Assembly: GCF_004368405.1 (NCBI RefSeq)
Contig: NZ_SBJH01000025.1
Coordinates: 1-60,200 of the forward strand
Length of the DNA stretch: 60,200 bases
Source: Olivibacter sp. XZL3
GTDB taxonomy: Bacteria; Bacteroidota; Bacteroidia; Sphingobacteriales; Sphingobacteriaceae
Direction: 5' to 3'
Shown here: positions 11,518 to 18,120 of the stretch, in pieces
Layout of the letters: each line of letters starts with the position of its first letter
Position numbering within the stretch: position 1 is the stretch's first letter
Position numbers and translations under genes: made by a program
Notes under the pieces: generated by a model
What the model saw: the letters and a program-made list of their open reading frames with translations, nothing else
The model's database searches: none
Told to the model about the DNA's origin: nothing

Positions 11518-11772
11518 GTTGGACACACCTATTTCGAACCTTCGGAAATTAAGAACGCCCTTTACCTCCCATTTCAAAAGCGATTTTGTATAAATGCGGC
11601 TGCTTGTTGCAGACCACTAAAGTTTGTTGCATTAAAGTAAAATATCGATAGGGTTTGTTTGAAGCAAAAAACTAAAAGCCCTATCCATCGCGCTCGAACT
11701 TGTCGGTTCTTCAAAAGTGATTCGTTACCGAAAATAAAAGCTATTTTTACGGCACTTACCGATCGATCACAG

Positions 11773-12903
11773 ATGAGATTCCACGAGATGCTACGAATTC
11801 TACTGCCAAATGAAACAGCTAGCCCGAGGCCAGGATTACGCTTTACTTATCATTGCTGTTTTTGGTGTTTAATTACAGCGATCTACTATTTTAATTATTA
11901 TCGGCTAGTCGGCAATGCTGAGCATGTATGGATTTTTGTGGCGAAAGAGTTGCTGGTTGTTATGAGTGCCTTTTACTCTTTATCTTCCCAAAAGGTAGTA
12001 AACGTGTTTGCAAACCCGCGAGGCCTTCTGTATGTGCTGTTGTGGATTGCCGTGCTATACGTTTTATGGGCGTTAAGCACCTATGCAGCATGCGTGATAT
12101 TTCAGACTGTTTTTAAAAACTATGGTCCGCGCTTTGGCAAATACCTCGAGCTCGTATTGATGGATGGACCCTTCGGCATCATTAAAAACGTGTACATATT
12201 TGCGCTCGATTTTATTTTCCTCATTTCGCTACCTGTCGGACCAAAATTTGTAAAAATTATGTTAGAACAGGTGCTTACCAAAACCCGATTAGAAAGAGAC
12301 AATTTGGAGCTTGAGCTCAATTTTCTTAAATCACAGATCAATCCTCATTTCTTGTTTAATACACTTCACAATATCTATCAGTTACTGGATATCGACTACG
12401 ACAACGGGCGTGATATGGTCTTGAGGCTCTCAACCCTGATGCGATATACGCTGTACGAATCGCAAAGCCATTTTATCCCTCTTCAGAAGGAGCTCGAATT
12501 TATCGAAGATTTTATGGCGCTTATGCGTATCAGGTATGGGGAAGGCGTGCGTATCGAAGCAAACATTGTGGAGGTGAAAGAACCGTACAAAATAAGTCCC
12601 TTAATGCTTATACCCTTTGTGGAAAATGCTTTTAAACATGGTCCGGACCGAAGTCCGAATAACAATTTTGTATCTGTCAATATCCAGCTGAACAATGATT
12701 TTATCATGCTCGACGTGCAAAACCGGATAGAAACGCCATCGAACACCGATAAAGTCAGCGATGCAGCGCACATAGGAGGCGTTGGGATGACGAATGTTTT
12801 ACGGAGGCTTGAGCTACATTACAAAGACAAATATCGCTTGGAATATGGAAGCCACGGAAATCTATATTCCGTACATTTGGAAATAAATTTGAAATTTAGT
12901 TGA
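11773..12903 (+). CDS. LytS/YehU-type sensor histidine kinase
   Basis: Membrane sensor kinase of the His_kinase (LytS) family. The N-terminal half has about four hydrophobic segments (for example FTYHCCFWCLITAIYYF, LLYVLLWIAVLYVLWALSTY), followed by a coiled linker and the phosphoacceptor motif SQINPHFLFNTLHN with His192 from this start. The ATP-binding domain shows PLMLIPFVENAFKHG (N box) and GGVGMTNVLRRL (G box). The open frame runs upstream to a TTG at 11659; ATG 11773 or 11788 are the credible starts. The stop is 3 nt before the LytTR regulator, so they form an operon. The signal sensed is unknown; its convergence with the dehydratase operon suggests a link. Confidence 0.9.
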   Translation: MRFHEMLRILLPNETASPRPGLRFTYHCCFWCLITAIYYFNYYRLVGNAEHVWIFVAKELLVVMSAFYSLSSQKVVNVFANPRGLLYVLLWIAVLYVLWALSTYAACVIFQTVFKNYGPRFGKYLELVLMDGPFGIIKNVYIFALDFIFLISLPVGPKFVKIMLEQVLTKTRLERDNLELELNFLKSQINPHFLFNTLHNIYQLLDIDYDNGRDMVLRLSTLMRYTLYESQSHFIPLQKELEFIEDFMALMRIRYGEGVRIEANIVEVKEPYKISPLMLIPFVENAFKHGPDRSPNNNFVSVNIQLNNDFIMLDVQNRIETPSNTDKVSDAAHIGGVGMTNVLRRLELHYKDKYRLEYGSHGNLYSVHLEINLKFS

Positions 12904-12906
12904 GAT

Positions 12907-13605
12907 ATGGTGCAATGTATTTTAATTGAAGATGAGCCTTTGGCAAGAAAAGGCATTAGCCAACATATCACGCAAATACCCTTTGTCCATCTGGAAGCCA
13001 GCTTCGAAAATGCCATGGAGGCCATCGTATTTCTGAGTAAACACGAGGTTGATATCGTGATTTCGGATATCAATATGCCCGGTGTTAATGGAGTGGATTT
13101 CCTGAAATCCTTATCTAAAAGGCCGCTCTTTATCTTCATTACCGGCAGGCCTGATTATGCGCTGGAGAGCTTTGAGCTGGAGGTTTTTGACTATATTTTG
13201 AAACCCTATTCATTCGAAAGGCTCTTTAAGGCCCTGTCTAGAGCGCAGACGCACCTCTCCAAACGGGAGGCAGCAGAGAAAGTAGAAGTAGGTACCTTTA
13301 CGATTAAAGAGAACTATAGAAATTACCTCGTGCCTTATGAAGAGATACAATATATTGAAGGCGATAAAGAATACATCCGGATATCCACCATCGAGCGGGA
13401 GTTCCTCATTGTCTACTCACTGAAGAAAATCACGAATGATCTGCCTTTGGATATTTTTATCAGGACCCATAAATCCTACATTGTCAATAAAGCATTTGTG
13501 CGGGCGGTGGATCCCGACAAGGTTATTATGAAGGGCAGTATTAAAGATATTCCGATAGGTACGACTTATCGGGACGAGGTATATAAAAAATTAGTGCACC
13601 ACTAG
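12907..13605 (+). CDS. LytTR-family response regulator
   Basis: DNA-binding response regulator, partner of the kinase just upstream. Receiver domain residues 1-115 with acidic pocket E8/D9, phosphoacceptor D54 (VISDINMPG), T79 and K99 (YILKPYSFERL). LytTR DNA-binding domain about 130-230 (YEEIQYIEGDKEYIRI, FIRTHKSYIVNKAFV). LytTR proteins bind direct repeats upstream of exported or membrane-associated gene targets. The last 15 nt overlap the 3' end of the convergent dehydratase gene. Confidence 0.95.
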   Translation: MVQCILIEDEPLARKGISQHITQIPFVHLEASFENAMEAIVFLSKHEVDIVISDINMPGVNGVDFLKSLSKRPLFIFITGRPDYALESFELEVFDYILKPYSFERLFKALSRAQTHLSKREAAEKVEVGTFTIKENYRNYLVPYEEIQYIEGDKEYIRISTIEREFLIVYSLKKITNDLPLDIFIRTHKSYIVNKAFVRAVDPDKVIMKGSIKDIPIGTTYRDEVYKKLVHH

Positions 13606-16600
13606 CGAAGTTTTTTCTAAGCGGGGCGCTTTTCCAATTCTGGCTAATGTAGATCGATAATGCTTCGCTAAATAGAAATAAACTACCATTTCATTGGCTC
13701 GCTGATCAGAAAAGAAAAGCTTGTTAAGAAACATATGGCTTAGGCTTCCAATCAGTTTGCTTTTGTCCGACTTCCGCAGTCTCCGCGTTGCAAGTAGCGA
13801 AAAGAGTTTGCAATACCGTTTGTCGAAAATATCCTTAAACAGCGGTTCTGCTGTTTGTGGTACGTCGTTTTTAAGTACCTGCGCTATGGCGGCGGAGCTA
13901 TGTCGATAATTCAGATTAATCTGTTTTTGCTGCTTCTTGTCGAGATCAAACTCTTTCGATAAGGCCAGGCTCCATGATTCGGTTAACTCAAAGCGCTCCG
14001 ATAAACTGAAGCCAAAGAGCTCAAGAAGTTGATCGGTGGCTTTCAGTCCGAATAACCAGGGGGTGGTGGCGTCTTCTTTGTTTGGTCGCTGTAAAAAGCA
14101 GAGTACGGCGGTGGAATCAATAGCAAAGACGGATTCACAGAGCTCCATATTGTCCGATCCATAACGCTCAATCTCGCGCGTATAGGTGTCATGTTGCACC
14201 GTCCACACTTTGTTGTCGATCGTTAGGTATTCCAACGCTACCCGTATAATCTGCTGAATCTTGTTAATTGTCTGCTTGTTTTTCTTTGCGGCCAGAAAAC
14301 GCAGTCGGATATGGAAGTCCGGATCATGATAGCGCACAAAAAACCATTTATCGATGAGGCCCTCATTTGTAAGCTGTTCTACCAATTCGGCTATATTATT
14401 CGTCAATAGCTCATCGGCACTTTTTTGCGCACAATAAAGCTTGAGGTAGATCCACTCACTTCCCGGCAAGAAACGCCGTTTTACTGTTTTTTCCAAGGCC
14501 GGTTTTGCGTATAAGGCACTGTCGGCGGTTACGATGGATTTAAACGGAAGGATCAGCTCATTTACAAAGGACTGGCCTTGAGTATTCGCGACAATGGGGC
14601 TTTGTTGGGCTACAGACTCATAAAGTGTTACATCGCCTAAAGCCAATTTGTCCAAAAGAAGTTGTATACCCCATGGCGTCTGTAGATTGATATACAGTTC
14701 GTTATCGCCTTCGGCGATCAGTACCTCGTTCGGCAAAGTCAAATCCACTTGTAAACGCTTAATCAAGGCCTTGCCCTCTTGATGCGCCTTTGCACATTTC
14801 CTGACATACCAACGTGCACGCGATAGGATGAGGTGCTTATAAATTACCCGCGGTAAAAAGGGTGTCTCTTTATACTTGTCCCATTTCCAATGAATAGAAA
14901 AGGGCGTGTCCTGGTATTGCAGATCGGATAAGAAACGATAAATCGAAATGCCCTGTTGAAAATTATGTGCACAGCTCAGGCGCGGTATAACTCGTTTATT
15001 AAGCTTCCTTGAAAACAAAAGTATCTGGTTGTTGCGGACGGAAATGCTGAGATCTGATAGCAGAATCTGCTGTTCATCGTCTTTCCGCGTAGCGCCCAGT
15101 ATGGGAATTTCATAGCTGTATAAAGAAGGACGTTGCAGGATATTCCCCAATTTGCCTTCAGGCATGTGCACAATGTCTGCCAGAACAGCTTCTTCGAAGC
15201 AACTTTCTTCATAGCGTGCGCAGCGTTTCAGGTTTTCCTTGAGCGCCTCGTCCATATAAGCGAAGCGCGACATTAAGTTAATTGCCGACGAGCCACTACA
15301 TGCCAGCACATTAAATTGAAAATTACCTTTATCCAAGTCTTCGGCGCAATTTGCCAGTAGGTTGCCGATGGTGTAAAACGTAGGGGCTACGGTAGTTTCT
15401 TGATTCTTATGATCAAAAGCCGTATGTATTTTTTCCAGGTCTATATGTTTGGCATTCCCTAATAGCCCGTTAACAACCGCTTGGTCTTCCAGTGTTGCGC
15501 TTGCCGTCTTTTTGTCTTTGCGAATATGCAAATCGCTTATCAAGGGATGCTCTTTTTTATACTGGTCTTCCAGATCGCCGTAACCGATACCGACATCGCC
15601 ATCCAATACTTCCAGAAGCGGTACGTCCATCATGTCGTAGCGCCTTTTAAATTTTTCCGCAAAAACTTGTAGGTCTCGCGGTATCGACGCCTGAAATAAT
15701 GGGTGTAGCTCACATAGCTCATCTGCTATTAACTGCACGGCCGACTGTTTAAGCTGTACTTTTTCGGGGATAAACTTTTTATCGGCTTGTAACAATACCG
15801 GATGGGTATTCCGTTCTTCGATGGGCATTTCTCCCAAGTTGGATGATAACCTTTCCCGTACTGTTTGCAGTTCTTTGCTGTCGCCCGCCATTTCCTTTAA
15901 CTTATGGTTCAACGCAGCAAGTTGATCTTCCCCCACAACCGGCGGCTCCAGTTCCCAAACCAGAAATTGATTATCTACCAAGCGCGATAAATAGGCGGTC
16001 ACCCGCTCCCTTTCAATATCAAAATCGACTAAAAAAGCGATAAGCTCATCATAAGGCCTCCCTTCCTTTGCATATTCATATAAAACCTCCAGTAATGGAT
16101 TTTTCTTAAGCCTAATCTGAAAAAACCTTTTTTTGCCCGCTACATTTTCATAGCGAATATATCGGAAGTAGCCGCCAATGGTGTTAATGCTGTTGTTCGT
16201 GTAAAACGTAATACCCTTTAAGGATTCTTCCTTTCCCCGTAGCAGATGGATGGTTTCTACGAGATAATCCATGCTCAAACGGGTATGTGTCTCCGAGCGG
16301 TCGCTAAGTCTTAATGTATTGGGGCCATCATTTACTGTGCCCATACATATTCCGGCAAAACTTCCAAATGGGGTAGGACGGGATGCCATGCGAGCGACAT
16401 ATTTATATAAGGTCAGTAGCAGCTTCTTATTCGGCTGGCGGCCTTCTTTTAGCCATTCAAGATAGCTGTTGTACAGCTCTTTGTTAGCGAAGGAGATGGC
16501 TTGTAGTACCGCTGGATTCGCTATCAATAAGTTATACAGACTTTGACCTAAGTCGGCACCATTGTCAATCGCATTGATCTTTTGAATTTCGTGTAAGGGC

Positions 16601-16653
16601 AAGCTCGGCGCTCTTAATAGAAAGAAACCAAGATGTTCTATACGGCTTAACAT
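13591..16653 (-). CDS. LanB-type lantibiotic dehydratase, full length
   Basis: Class I lanthipeptide/thiopeptide-type dehydratase. Known family members use glutamyl-tRNA to glutamylate Ser/Thr of a precursor peptide and then eliminate glutamate to give dehydroamino acids. The 1020 residues carry both modules: the N-terminal glutamylation domain, with the signature ASRPTPFGSFAG (R92-G97), and the C-terminal elimination domain of SpaB_C type (SEWIYLKLYCAQKSADELL, FFVRYHDPDFHIRLRF). It is the last gene of a minus-strand cassette: peptide gene, then receiver domain, then this gene 12 nt later. No LanC cyclase, LanP protease or LanT exporter is visible within 10 kb. The terminal codons overlap the LytTR gene on the other strand. 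Confidence 0.9.
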   Translation of the reverse strand: MLSRIEHLGFFLLRAPSLPLHEIQKINAIDNGADLGQSLYNLLIANPAVLQAISFANKELYNSYLEWLKEGRQPNKKLLLTLYKYVARMASRPTPFGSFAGICMGTVNDGPNTLRLSDRSETHTRLSMDYLVETIHLLRGKEESLKGITFYTNNSINTIGGYFRYIRYENVAGKKRFFQIRLKKNPLLEVLYEYAKEGRPYDELIAFLVDFDIERERVTAYLSRLVDNQFLVWELEPPVVGEDQLAALNHKLKEMAGDSKELQTVRERLSSNLGEMPIEERNTHPVLLQADKKFIPEKVQLKQSAVQLIADELCELHPLFQASIPRDLQVFAEKFKRRYDMMDVPLLEVLDGDVGIGYGDLEDQYKKEHPLISDLHIRKDKKTASATLEDQAVVNGLLGNAKHIDLEKIHTAFDHKNQETTVAPTFYTIGNLLANCAEDLDKGNFQFNVLACSGSSAINLMSRFAYMDEALKENLKRCARYEESCFEEAVLADIVHMPEGKLGNILQRPSLYSYEIPILGATRKDDEQQILLSDLSISVRNNQILLFSRKLNKRVIPRLSCAHNFQQGISIYRFLSDLQYQDTPFSIHWKWDKYKETPFLPRVIYKHLILSRARWYVRKCAKAHQEGKALIKRLQVDLTLPNEVLIAEGDNELYINLQTPWGIQLLLDKLALGDVTLYESVAQQSPIVANTQGQSFVNELILPFKSIVTADSALYAKPALEKTVKRRFLPGSEWIYLKLYCAQKSADELLTNNIAELVEQLTNEGLIDKWFFVRYHDPDFHIRLRFLAAKKNKQTINKIQQIIRVALEYLTIDNKVWTVQHDTYTREIERYGSDNMELCESVFAIDSTAVLCFLQRPNKEDATTPWLFGLKATDQLLELFGFSLSERFELTESWSLALSKEFDLDKKQQKQINLNYRHSSAAIAQVLKNDVPQTAEPLFKDIFDKRYCKLFSLLATRRLRKSDKSKLIGSLSHMFLNKLFFSDQRANEMVVYFYLAKHYRSTLARIGKAPRLEKTSLVVH

Positions 16654-16665
16654 AACAGTATAGTG

Positions 16666-17055
16666 CTAGAGATAAGTATTGTTTGTTTGCAATAAGGAGT
16701 CGATGCACGCGCTAAATCGCTCAAAAGAAAACGGCTTCAACAATTCGACAACTTGACTGCTCGCTTCCGTTTTTTCCGATTCATTGAAAAATGAAATAGG
16801 CGAAGCCGAGGTGCTGATTATTAGTGAAGTAGGAGAGATTCGGTCTAAGATCTTAGCTATATCACCGTCAAACCCCGGTATTTTAAAGTCGAGGAAAACA
16901 ATGTCGTGACTAGTAGTTTTGGTAATGGCCTGAAAATCAGGTATATTATTTATTACCGAGATGAGTATCAGATCCGGTCTTCTGCTAATATAGCCGTCAA
17001 GCATCTGTATTGCCAACGGCTCATCCTCCACAATAGCACAGGTTAGGCGTCGCAT
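16666..17055 (-). CDS. Stand-alone receiver-domain protein in the dehydratase cassette
   Basis: 129-residue CheY-like protein: MRRLTCAIVEDEPLAIQML, acidic pocket E10/D11, phosphoacceptor D56 (IVFLDFKIPG), T82 and K107 (ELLKPFSFERF). All catalytic positions are present, so it should be phosphorylatable. The sequence is that of a LytTR-type receiver (compare EDEPLA and KPYSFERL in the regulator at 12907) but the protein ends where the DNA-binding domain would begin. A good ribosome-binding AGGA lies 5-8 nt before ATG. It sits 33 nt after the peptide gene and 12 nt before the dehydratase, so it is an integral part of the cassette. It may act as phosphate sink or regulate by protein contact. Confidence 0.9.
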   Translation of the reverse strand: MRRLTCAIVEDEPLAIQMLDGYISRRPDLILISVINNIPDFQAITKTTSHDIVFLDFKIPGFDGDIAKILDRISPTSLIISTSASPISFFNESEKTEASSQVVELLKPFSFERFSACIDSLLQTNNTYL

Positions 17056-17088
17056 GTTTCCTGTTTAATTAGCGCTGACTACCGCTTA

Positions 17089-17244
17089 TCAAATAAAATT
17101 CGAAGTCGTAAACGTCATACTGCTTACAGTCTCATCCTGGTCACCCAGATTCCGATTAAATTCCGGTCTGGCATCGACGTTGCAGACACGTTCTGCTTCA
17201 ATGTTCAAATAGTTCTCAAGAAGTTGTTTGTCAATATTTTTCAT
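17089..17244 (-). CDS. Candidate RiPP precursor peptide (51 aa)
   Basis: Short gene directly upstream of the receiver and LanB-type dehydratase genes, on the same strand, with AAAGGA just before its ATG. The peptide starts MKNIDKQLLENYLNIEAERV (acidic, helical, leader-like) and ends ETVSSMTFTTSNFI. Residues 1-38 contain no Ser or Thr at all; residues 39-51 contain seven (T39, S41, S42, T44, T46, T47, S48). This is the composition expected of a dehydratase substrate with a hydroxyl-free leader and a Ser/Thr-rich core. The only Cys (C21) lies in the leader half, so a classical lanthionine ring in the tail is unlikely. No GG cleavage motif; LGDQDE precedes the tail. No homologue recognised; assignment is inference from composition and context. 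Confidence 0.7.
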   Translation of the reverse strand: MKNIDKQLLENYLNIEAERVCNVDARPEFNRNLGDQDETVSSMTFTTSNFI

Positions 17245-18120
17245 GTCCTTTTGCTATTAATTCTTAGCAAGTTTCTACCAAAAGAATTTCATCTGCATTT
17301 TTATTTCACCAACTGCTGATCTTGTTATATCAATTTGCCTGAGCGCTCAATATTTGAAAATCAAAGTTGCTGATGAGGCTGTGGTCAGACCGTGGGACTT
17401 TCGGCGGGCGATGGTTAAGGGGCGGTATTGAGCGCTGGTAAGTTTATTCAACAAAAACGCTCCATTTGTGGAGGCAAAAGTGCGCTTTCAGATCTGTCTG
17501 AAATCATAAGGGGGTGATTGTTCCAAACTCAGTGATTTTATTTTTTTATTAATAGGTTGTTTACGAGTGTTTTATGGTGTTGGTTTCAACAGAATCAAAG
17601 AAAGTGTAGTAGTAGAATGCCAAATTGCCTGCGCAAGTACATTTAGCCGTCTAAAACTTCGTTAAGAACGGTGAGCGTCCTTACATTTGGCTTAAATATT
17701 TCGAATTGTACAATACGTTGTTCAATCTGAAACATGATCGAAGGTATTCCAGCGGCTATGTAGTCTTGTTTGGAAAAGGAACCTTAAGCAAGTGTCACTC
17801 TATTACGCTTTCAGAACTATGTCTACCCGTAGCGAATACGGCAAGTATTTATCTCTAAGAGAAGATACCATCAAAAAGACACGTCGCTTATCCATTTCTT
17901 TTCAATGGAAGAATTAGATGCAAAAGGTTGGAATATCATTCGACATGGAACGGGCCTTAACCTGAGTTCAAAATTCCTAAACCATTTTATCCCTGCTGTC
18001 GGTCAGAAGTTGATAGCAGCAGCCAGTTGATAGGGGCCACAGGCCCGTTCGTGAAATTTATTGTCAACGGAGCAAAAAATACATCAAATTCGTGTACGCC
18101 TATACAGAACGGGGCTTACG
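17245..18120. other. Long intergenic region with dyad repeat and decayed frames
   Basis: About 875 nt between the peptide gene (minus) and tetR (plus). It holds the cassette promoter region and an 11-bp inverted repeat pair. A stop-free frame at 17738-17917 ends RRLSISFQWKN, and an overlapping frame ends in KFLNHFIPAVGQKLIAAAS at about 18030. Both look like C-terminal tails of lost genes but no family could be named. No intact gene seen. Confidence 0.4.
17342..17436. repeat. 11-bp inverted repeat pair upstream of the peptide gene
   Basis: AGCGCTCAATA at 17342-17352 and its exact reverse complement TATTGAGCGCT at 17426-17436, 73 nt apart, located 98-192 nt upstream of the peptide start codon. 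Could be a pair of regulator sites for DNA looping. Confidence 0.5.

Follow-up and report, generated by a model that had tools for sequence, protein, structure and literature searches.

Class I lanthipeptide clusters, whether of the nisin type or those with double-glycine (GG) leaders described from Bacteroidota (PMC7268733), combine a full-length LanB dehydratase, a leader peptide with a Ser/Thr-rich C-terminal part and two-component regulation. The locus described here, from Olivibacter sp. XZL3 (contig NZ_SBJH01000025.1, analysed over its whole 60,200 nucleotides, hereafter the window), appears to share these traits. It differs from such clusters in that the tail of its precursor-like peptide contains no Cys, LanC, transporter and protease are missing, and a lone receiver protein is encoded between precursor and LanB. 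These three genes face their own kinase and regulator, and the resulting five-gene unit recurs in related bacteria.

Further systems resemble the unit in part. Clusters of peptide aminoacyl-tRNA ligases (PEARLs) and their pearlins likewise pair a LanB-type enzyme with a precursor in the absence of LanC and tail Cys (PMC11002830, PMC11962472); PEARLs typically lack an elimination domain (PMC11962472), whereas the window LanB has one together with its residues. Goadsporin, thiopeptides and dehydrazoles undergo tRNA-dependent dehydration without lanthionine formation, as the window peptide may, yet their clusters carry azole- or pyridine-forming enzymes, whereas no further gene recurs by the unit (YcaO was not searched for). 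In LytTR Regulatory Systems and two-component systems, an operon that regulates itself is preceded by 9-bp direct repeats with 12 bp between them (PMC6193735), a pattern to which the repeats upstream of the peptide family may correspond; the unit differs from these in consensus, in its combination of a kinase with a receiver-type regulator, and in that its presumed target operon includes an enzyme for ribosomally synthesized and post-translationally modified peptides (RiPPs). Full-text searches of an open-access library, which did not extend to subscription papers, brought up no account of a comparable unit or peptide family. A study of Pedobacter lusitanus lanthipeptides, reportedly by Caetano et al. 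in 2020, is possibly relevant.

A five-gene unit recurs in related bacteria

The original prediction had pointed at a three-gene cassette of a 51-codon peptide frame, a 129-residue receiver and a 1020-residue LanB. Coordinates and the gaps of 33 nt (peptide/receiver) and 12 nt (receiver/LanB) on one strand were confirmed, but the unit is larger, as a convergent kinase/LytTR pair belongs to it (Table 1). At 11.8–13.6 kb, the regulator gene directly follows the LytS-type kinase gene, and the 3′ ends of regulator and LanB overlap by 15 nt on opposite strands. With a His_kinase (PF06580) protein adjoining a receiver-LytTR regulator, the pair classifies by Pfam as a LytS/LytTR two-component system. 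The kinase frame as listed begins at 11659 with TTG; the ATG at 11773 agrees with the start of the orthologue in locus L023 (376 aa). The window comprises the entire contig C104 of a 5.36-Mb draft genome.

Table 1 Features of the five-gene unit and its upstream element in the window
Feature	Position	Strand	Evidence
Precursor-like peptide, 51 aa; leader motif region around residues 12–22, Cys-free Ser/Thr tail 38–51	17089..17244	-	Open reading frame (ORF), conservation, composition
Lone receiver protein, 129 aa, no output domain	16666..17055	-	Pfam, alignment
Full-length class I dehydratase LanB, 1020 aa, glutamylation and elimination domains	13591..16653	-	Pfam, residues, fold model
LytTR response regulator, convergent with LanB	12907..13605	+	ORF, Pfam, recurrence in loci
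LytS-type (PF06580) histidine kinase	11773..12903	+	ORF, Pfam; start from L023 orthologue
Candidate LytTR site: TTGATATAA (17325–17333) and TTGGTGAAA (17304–17312), 9 bp each, 12-bp spacing	17304..17333	-	Genus conservation

The genus is represented by four more genomes, two of which contain the same five genes, with LanB 59% identical; the remaining two gave no match to the peptide profile. LanB matches at E ≤ 1e-100 were obtained in 63/399 genomes of the family and 18/395 of the class, and 111 LanB frames in 109 loci were classified from their surroundings. At 27 loci, termed module loci here, LanB is immediately preceded by a lone receiver and its end is faced by a LytTR regulator. All 27 harbor the peptide (the profile used on LanB loci was trained on 26 of these peptides, that of L100 being new) as well as a kinase adjoining the regulator, and LanC is absent from the examined stretch of each.

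Searching the 399 family genomes with a peptide-only profile yielded 35 matches in 27 genomes of four genera. Apart from one match cut by a contig end, each is immediately followed by a lone receiver and a LanB frame, so that the peptide is conserved beside homologous dehydratases at 34/34 assessable matches; 23 of these 34 peptides had been used to train the profile and 11 were new to it. Of 33 assessable copies, 32 have the facing kinase/regulator pair, 30 of them directly and two (L063 and L064) with another kinase in between. Beyond the five genes, neighbours are common only to close relatives. Among genes recurring with the unit there is no immunity gene and, as originally claimed, no cyclase, protease or exporter. 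Locus L084 has peptide, LanB and kinase/regulator pair and no lone receiver. A second copy of the unit lies in the genome of the window itself (G000 C116, L007 16541–19364), with a different peptide (tail GDTVSGITITTSFVAGGI) and a contig end inside LanB; its peptide is missed by a plain search with the window peptide and found by the profile. A scan of further genome contigs identified 11 loci, only one of which, L052 (Chitinophaga), has both lone receiver and peptide.

Broken or split LanB frames beside intact peptide and receiver frames were observed in G255 C39 (L185), G373 C10 (L186), G312 C1 (L100) and G031 C3/C17 (L090, L187). LanB is in pieces in G255 and G373, the latter also having its regulator in two frames. 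LanB is apparently decaying in some lineages.

The peptide tail is conserved and rich in Ser and Thr

Ser and Thr occur in the window peptide at positions 39, 41, 42, 44, 46, 47 and 48 only, and random placement of all seven within the last 13 of 51 positions has a P of 1.5e-5. Compared with locus L022, the last 15 codons display nine synonymous and no nonsynonymous differences, the first 30 codons eight synonymous and 14 nonsynonymous ones. This pattern marks the frame as a selected gene, with purifying selection most pronounced in the tail, which is DETVSSMTFTTSNFI in the window and L022 and DETASSMTFTTSNFI in L023. Ser or Thr occupies 95 of the 240 positions in the tails of 15 clade representatives, compared with 49.6 in shuffles (standard deviation (sd) 5.2; maximum 69 of 5000 shuffles). 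Cys is missing from the last 16 residues of all 31 peptides and occurs elsewhere in 14, among them the window peptide, whose sole Cys precedes the tail at position 21 as predicted. The hydroxyl-free leader of the original prediction likewise holds for the window peptide, but not for the family: 30/31 peptides carry at least two Ser/Thr outside the last 16 residues, the window peptide being the only one with none, and a hydroxyl-free leader was discarded as a family feature.

Leaders align near residues 11–22 (LKIEKEIIG, LRIEKEFIG, LNIEAERVC in the window, FALDVQTVC). For part of the family this stretch recalls the two class I leader boxes, FxLD and, in Bacteroidetes, LxLxKx5L (PMC7268733), which may be taken as a hint at family level. 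A matrix built from 38 GG-leader segments reaches P ≤ 0.05 inside the leader in 8/17 module peptides. No Pfam or NCBIfam model scored over cut-off for the window peptide or for 23 family peptides.

LanB keeps the residues for glutamylation and elimination

Both Lant_dehydr_N and Lant_dehydr_C match LanB far over cut-off (PF04738, 406 bits; PF14028, 214 bits). In alignments of 30 and 18 rows, R14, Y85, R88, R92, R463, R783, R785, E827, R830 and H973 do not vary among the rows covering them, and D291 is kept in at least 90% of rows. Alignment with 4wd9 assigns these to NisB R14, Y80, R83, R87, R464, R784, R786, E823 and R826, and D291 to D299; H973 probably corresponds to H961, where the alignment line is incomplete. 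We take NisB R464 and E823 (window R463 and E827) to have functional roles as well. In NisB, Y80 and H961 are essential and R14, R83 and R87 important, whereas D299A and R784A enzymes are still active (PMC4341554), which makes the equivalents of D299 and R784 weak tests; R786, R826 and H961 are named for elimination (PMC4979651). All residues needed in NisB, namely R14, Y80, R83, R87, R786, R826 and H961, are matched in the window LanB, H961 probably by H973.

An AlphaFold model of LanB (18-row alignment) has a mean predicted local distance difference test (pLDDT) score of 80.6. Its best PDB matches are MadB and then NisB (E 5e-52 and 2e-45), with a template modelling (TM) score of 0.60 and a root-mean-square deviation of ~20 Å over the whole chain, so that the fold agrees domain by domain, while the placement of the domains is not reproduced. 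In the LanB tree, a quick search with no mixture model in which 20 loci, mostly near copies, were skipped, 20 of 21 peptide-carrying rows plus L090 fall on one branch (Shimodaira–Hasegawa-like approximate likelihood-ratio test 99). The LanB of L052 lies outside this branch, near clusters with lone receiver and LanC. An action of LanB on the peptide appears well supported.

Lanthionine rings are unlikely

Two defining features of a lanthipeptide are missing, a tail Cys and a LanC at the module loci. The unit is therefore not filed as one, even though lanthipeptide chemistry would be used. LanC was also sought genome-wide in 25 carrier genomes, comprising 24 of the 27 peptide-profile genomes plus G295 (G255, G373 and G031 lie outside this set, and G003, which has no unit, was left out). 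PF05147 identified no LanC in 14/25 and some LANC_like match in 11/25, a profile built on 24 LanCs encoded at the loci found none in 14/25, and 13/25, the genome of the window included, had no LanC by either profile. Together with the Cys-free tails, this upholds the original view that a classical lanthionine is unlikely, and a linear dehydroamino-acid peptide is the most likely reading of the product. C39 peptidases, unlinked to the unit, are encoded in 24/25 carrier genomes, which makes unlinked export possible.

Sister clusters hold a separate peptide with a Cys-free tail

Eight clusters combining lone receiver and LanC gave no module-type peptide match (L065–L067, L070, L071, L073, L074 and L091). 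Like the unit, these sister clusters have a lone receiver directly before LanB, a LytS/LytTR pair and the upstream element described below; unlike it, they contain LanC and GG/Cys precursors (8/8) and a C39-type ATP-binding cassette (ABC) protein (cluster c6, 7/8), the c6 member of L064 being the PF03412 match of G315 C120. Each of the eight further encodes one Cys-free Ser/Thr-tail peptide, with tails such as GETLTMTSTMTGFVI in L073, DTLTQTGTMTGTLL in L074, PDTQTMTSSSGIIL in L065 and NNSLTITATSTY in L091. Six of these peptides were found with a strict tail filter, and those of L070 and L074 by reading. On the same strand, the filter detects such peptides in 5/69 other loci and in only 11/32 module-type loci, so that misses elsewhere are likely. 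It is mainly because clusters with Cys precursors keep a separate Cys-free-tail peptide with the same regulators that we read the peptide as a signal.

In sister clusters of the L065–L074 range, a second short frame lies just after the Ser/Thr-tail peptide, its leader-like part ending in GGGG (e.g. MKNDFFDLGNNDFNVFNENELNMIMGGGG).

A repeat element is shared by the peptide upstream regions

The motif TTTGGTCGAA, often arranged in 21-bp direct repeats, is common to the regions upstream of module and sister peptides. With up to two mismatches it precedes 30/40 peptides and 14/19 clade representatives, compared with 45/440 other genes; part of the tested sequences had served to define the motif, and the 440 controls draw in part on the remaining genes of these loci. 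Exact copies are located upstream in all eight sister clusters. For paired 9-mers upstream of module peptides (16 clades), lag 21 was the strongest of lags 12–40, scoring 99 versus 85.5 in shuffles (sd 3.9; 0/300), with the lag-21 region picked after viewing. Lag and region were fixed beforehand for six sister-cluster upstreams, two related pairs among them, and here the score was 42 versus 33.0 (sd 2.4; 0/300 shuffles), lag 37 being next best. The L066 upstream region exemplifies such a repeat, ATTTGGTCA-12-ATTTGGTCG. The window pair TTGATATAA-12-TTGGTGAAA is conserved in the genus. K-mer enrichment over 18 upstream regions together gave nothing clear above shuffles; the repeats emerged from group alignments and the lag test.

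A palindrome, TGAGCGCTCA, is positioned at 17338–17349 upstream of the window peptide. L023 has it too, and L022 a part of it.

Lone receivers form a group of their own and keep the phosphorylation site

Response_reg scores just over the Pfam cut-off in the window receiver, which retains the features of a phosphorylatable receiver, namely the acidic pocket, Asp56, Ser83 and Lys107. Among 40 lone receivers, the phospho-Asp is kept in 39 (the exception being the long-branched L125), Lys in 39 and Ser/Thr in 40. In a tree of few columns, the 40 lone receivers and 44 regulators lie on opposite sides of one branch (93/71), with one change in 94% of bootstrap trees.

A possible signalling circuit and its alternatives

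The unit may work as a five-gene circuit in which a linear dehydropeptide made by LanB acts as autoinducer, the window holding the signal circuit alone, a reading that we consider evenly balanced. The regulator would bind the paired 9-bp repeats upstream of the peptide, as its conserved element suggests, and drive expression of peptide, receiver and LanB. LanB, a dehydratase by its domains, residues and fold, would bind the leader and use glutamyl-tRNA to dehydrate tail Ser and Thr, of which the window peptide offers up to seven. With neither Cys in the tail nor a cyclase, the product would stay linear and rich in dehydroalanine and dehydrobutyrine. Unlinked machinery could then trim and export the peptide, the kinase could sense it as autoinducer, and the lone receiver could tune the circuit, either acting as a phosphate sink or partnering with kinase, regulator or LanB. 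More tentative, and short of even confidence, is the specific form of this idea, a dedicated pheromone. LanB alone would make it, as a linear dehydropeptide; the LytS-type kinase would sense it, and the lone receiver would act as a brake. In sister clusters its gene would be separate from the lanthipeptide under its control; in the lineage of the window the circuit would stand free as five genes. Were this true, LanB chemistry would serve signalling in the absence of lanthionine rings, and lanthipeptide clusters of Bacteroidota would hold a separate, easily missed autoinducer gene; this would offer a route to waking silent clusters of the phylum, and the role of a lone receiver beside a RiPP enzyme could be studied in a simple setting.

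Several observations weigh against this signalling circuit. The unit has no exporter, protease or secretion signal. The best GG-leader matrix position of the window, L022 and L007 peptides is in the tail, and the window leader scores poorly. Lag 15 comes close behind lag 21 in module upstreams (96 versus 99, the lag-15 score having no shuffle comparison), and the window pair deviates from the family element TTTGGTCGAA at 3/10 bases. The LanB of G031 is split over two contigs, and the 5.9-kb contig with its 3′ part (L090) carries neither kinase nor regulator. Kinase topology comes from hydropathy only, with two guesses that differ between orthologues and were not used.

The dehydrated peptide could instead be an end product with antibiotic or other effector activity, which unlinked enzymes would finish and export, with the two-component pair only regulating production. 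Known lantibiotic clusters are under two-component regulation (PMC3091789), and the unlinked C39 peptidases fit this as well, but genes for immunity, export or a protease do not recur next to the unit, and the Cys-free-tail peptide of sister clusters is one gene beside separate Cys precursors; we regard an end product as possible, if rather unlikely. Improbable is an intracellular device in which the modified peptide acts on the lone receiver, regulator or kinase and reports LanB activity or the level of charged tRNA-Glu: the missing exporter and a lone receiver that lies between peptide and LanB in 34/34 copies and nearly always keeps its Asp would agree with it, whereas L084 dispenses with the lone receiver altogether.

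The remaining alternatives concern the chemistry and the gene itself. A lanthionine or other thiol adduct after all, formed through an unlinked LanC or glutathione, has little to be said for it: LANC_like matches in 11 carrier genomes and the Cys outside the tail in 14 peptides, at 21 in the window, leave some room, and are countered by the Cys-free last 16 residues and by the 13 genomes, that of the window among them, in which neither profile finds LanC. It would be equally surprising if LanB performed glutamylation only or a PEARL-like amino-acid addition. PEARL clusters, too, are without LanC and precursor Cys (PMC11002830), but their enzymes usually have no elimination domain (PMC11962472), and the window LanB keeps that domain together with R783, R785, E827, R830 and H973. 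A PEARL-type enzyme was rejected on the presence of PF14028. That the short frame is no gene has next to no probability: it lacks any Pfam or NCBIfam match, yet the synonymous pattern and the linkage of independent profile matches refute a chance ORF in practice.

Other LanB loci

More LanB frames are found in the window's own genome on G000 C70 (L008), C111 (L009) and C122 (L010). On C70 and C111, C39 peptidase matches lie within ~3 kb of the LanB frames, although the genome has no LanC match by two profiles. At L081, the strand opposite to LanB carries three consecutive frames (−3091..−1630 relative to LanB): a lone receiver, a 49-aa frame that displays a LanB-type leader and a Ser/Thr tail, and a LytTR regulator. 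Short frames with Cys-free Ser/Thr tails also lie beside kinase/LytTR pairs in L092 (−4091..−3969 relative to LanB) and L116 (−1779..−1633), LanC clusters with no lone receiver, and may extend the signal-peptide idea to these.

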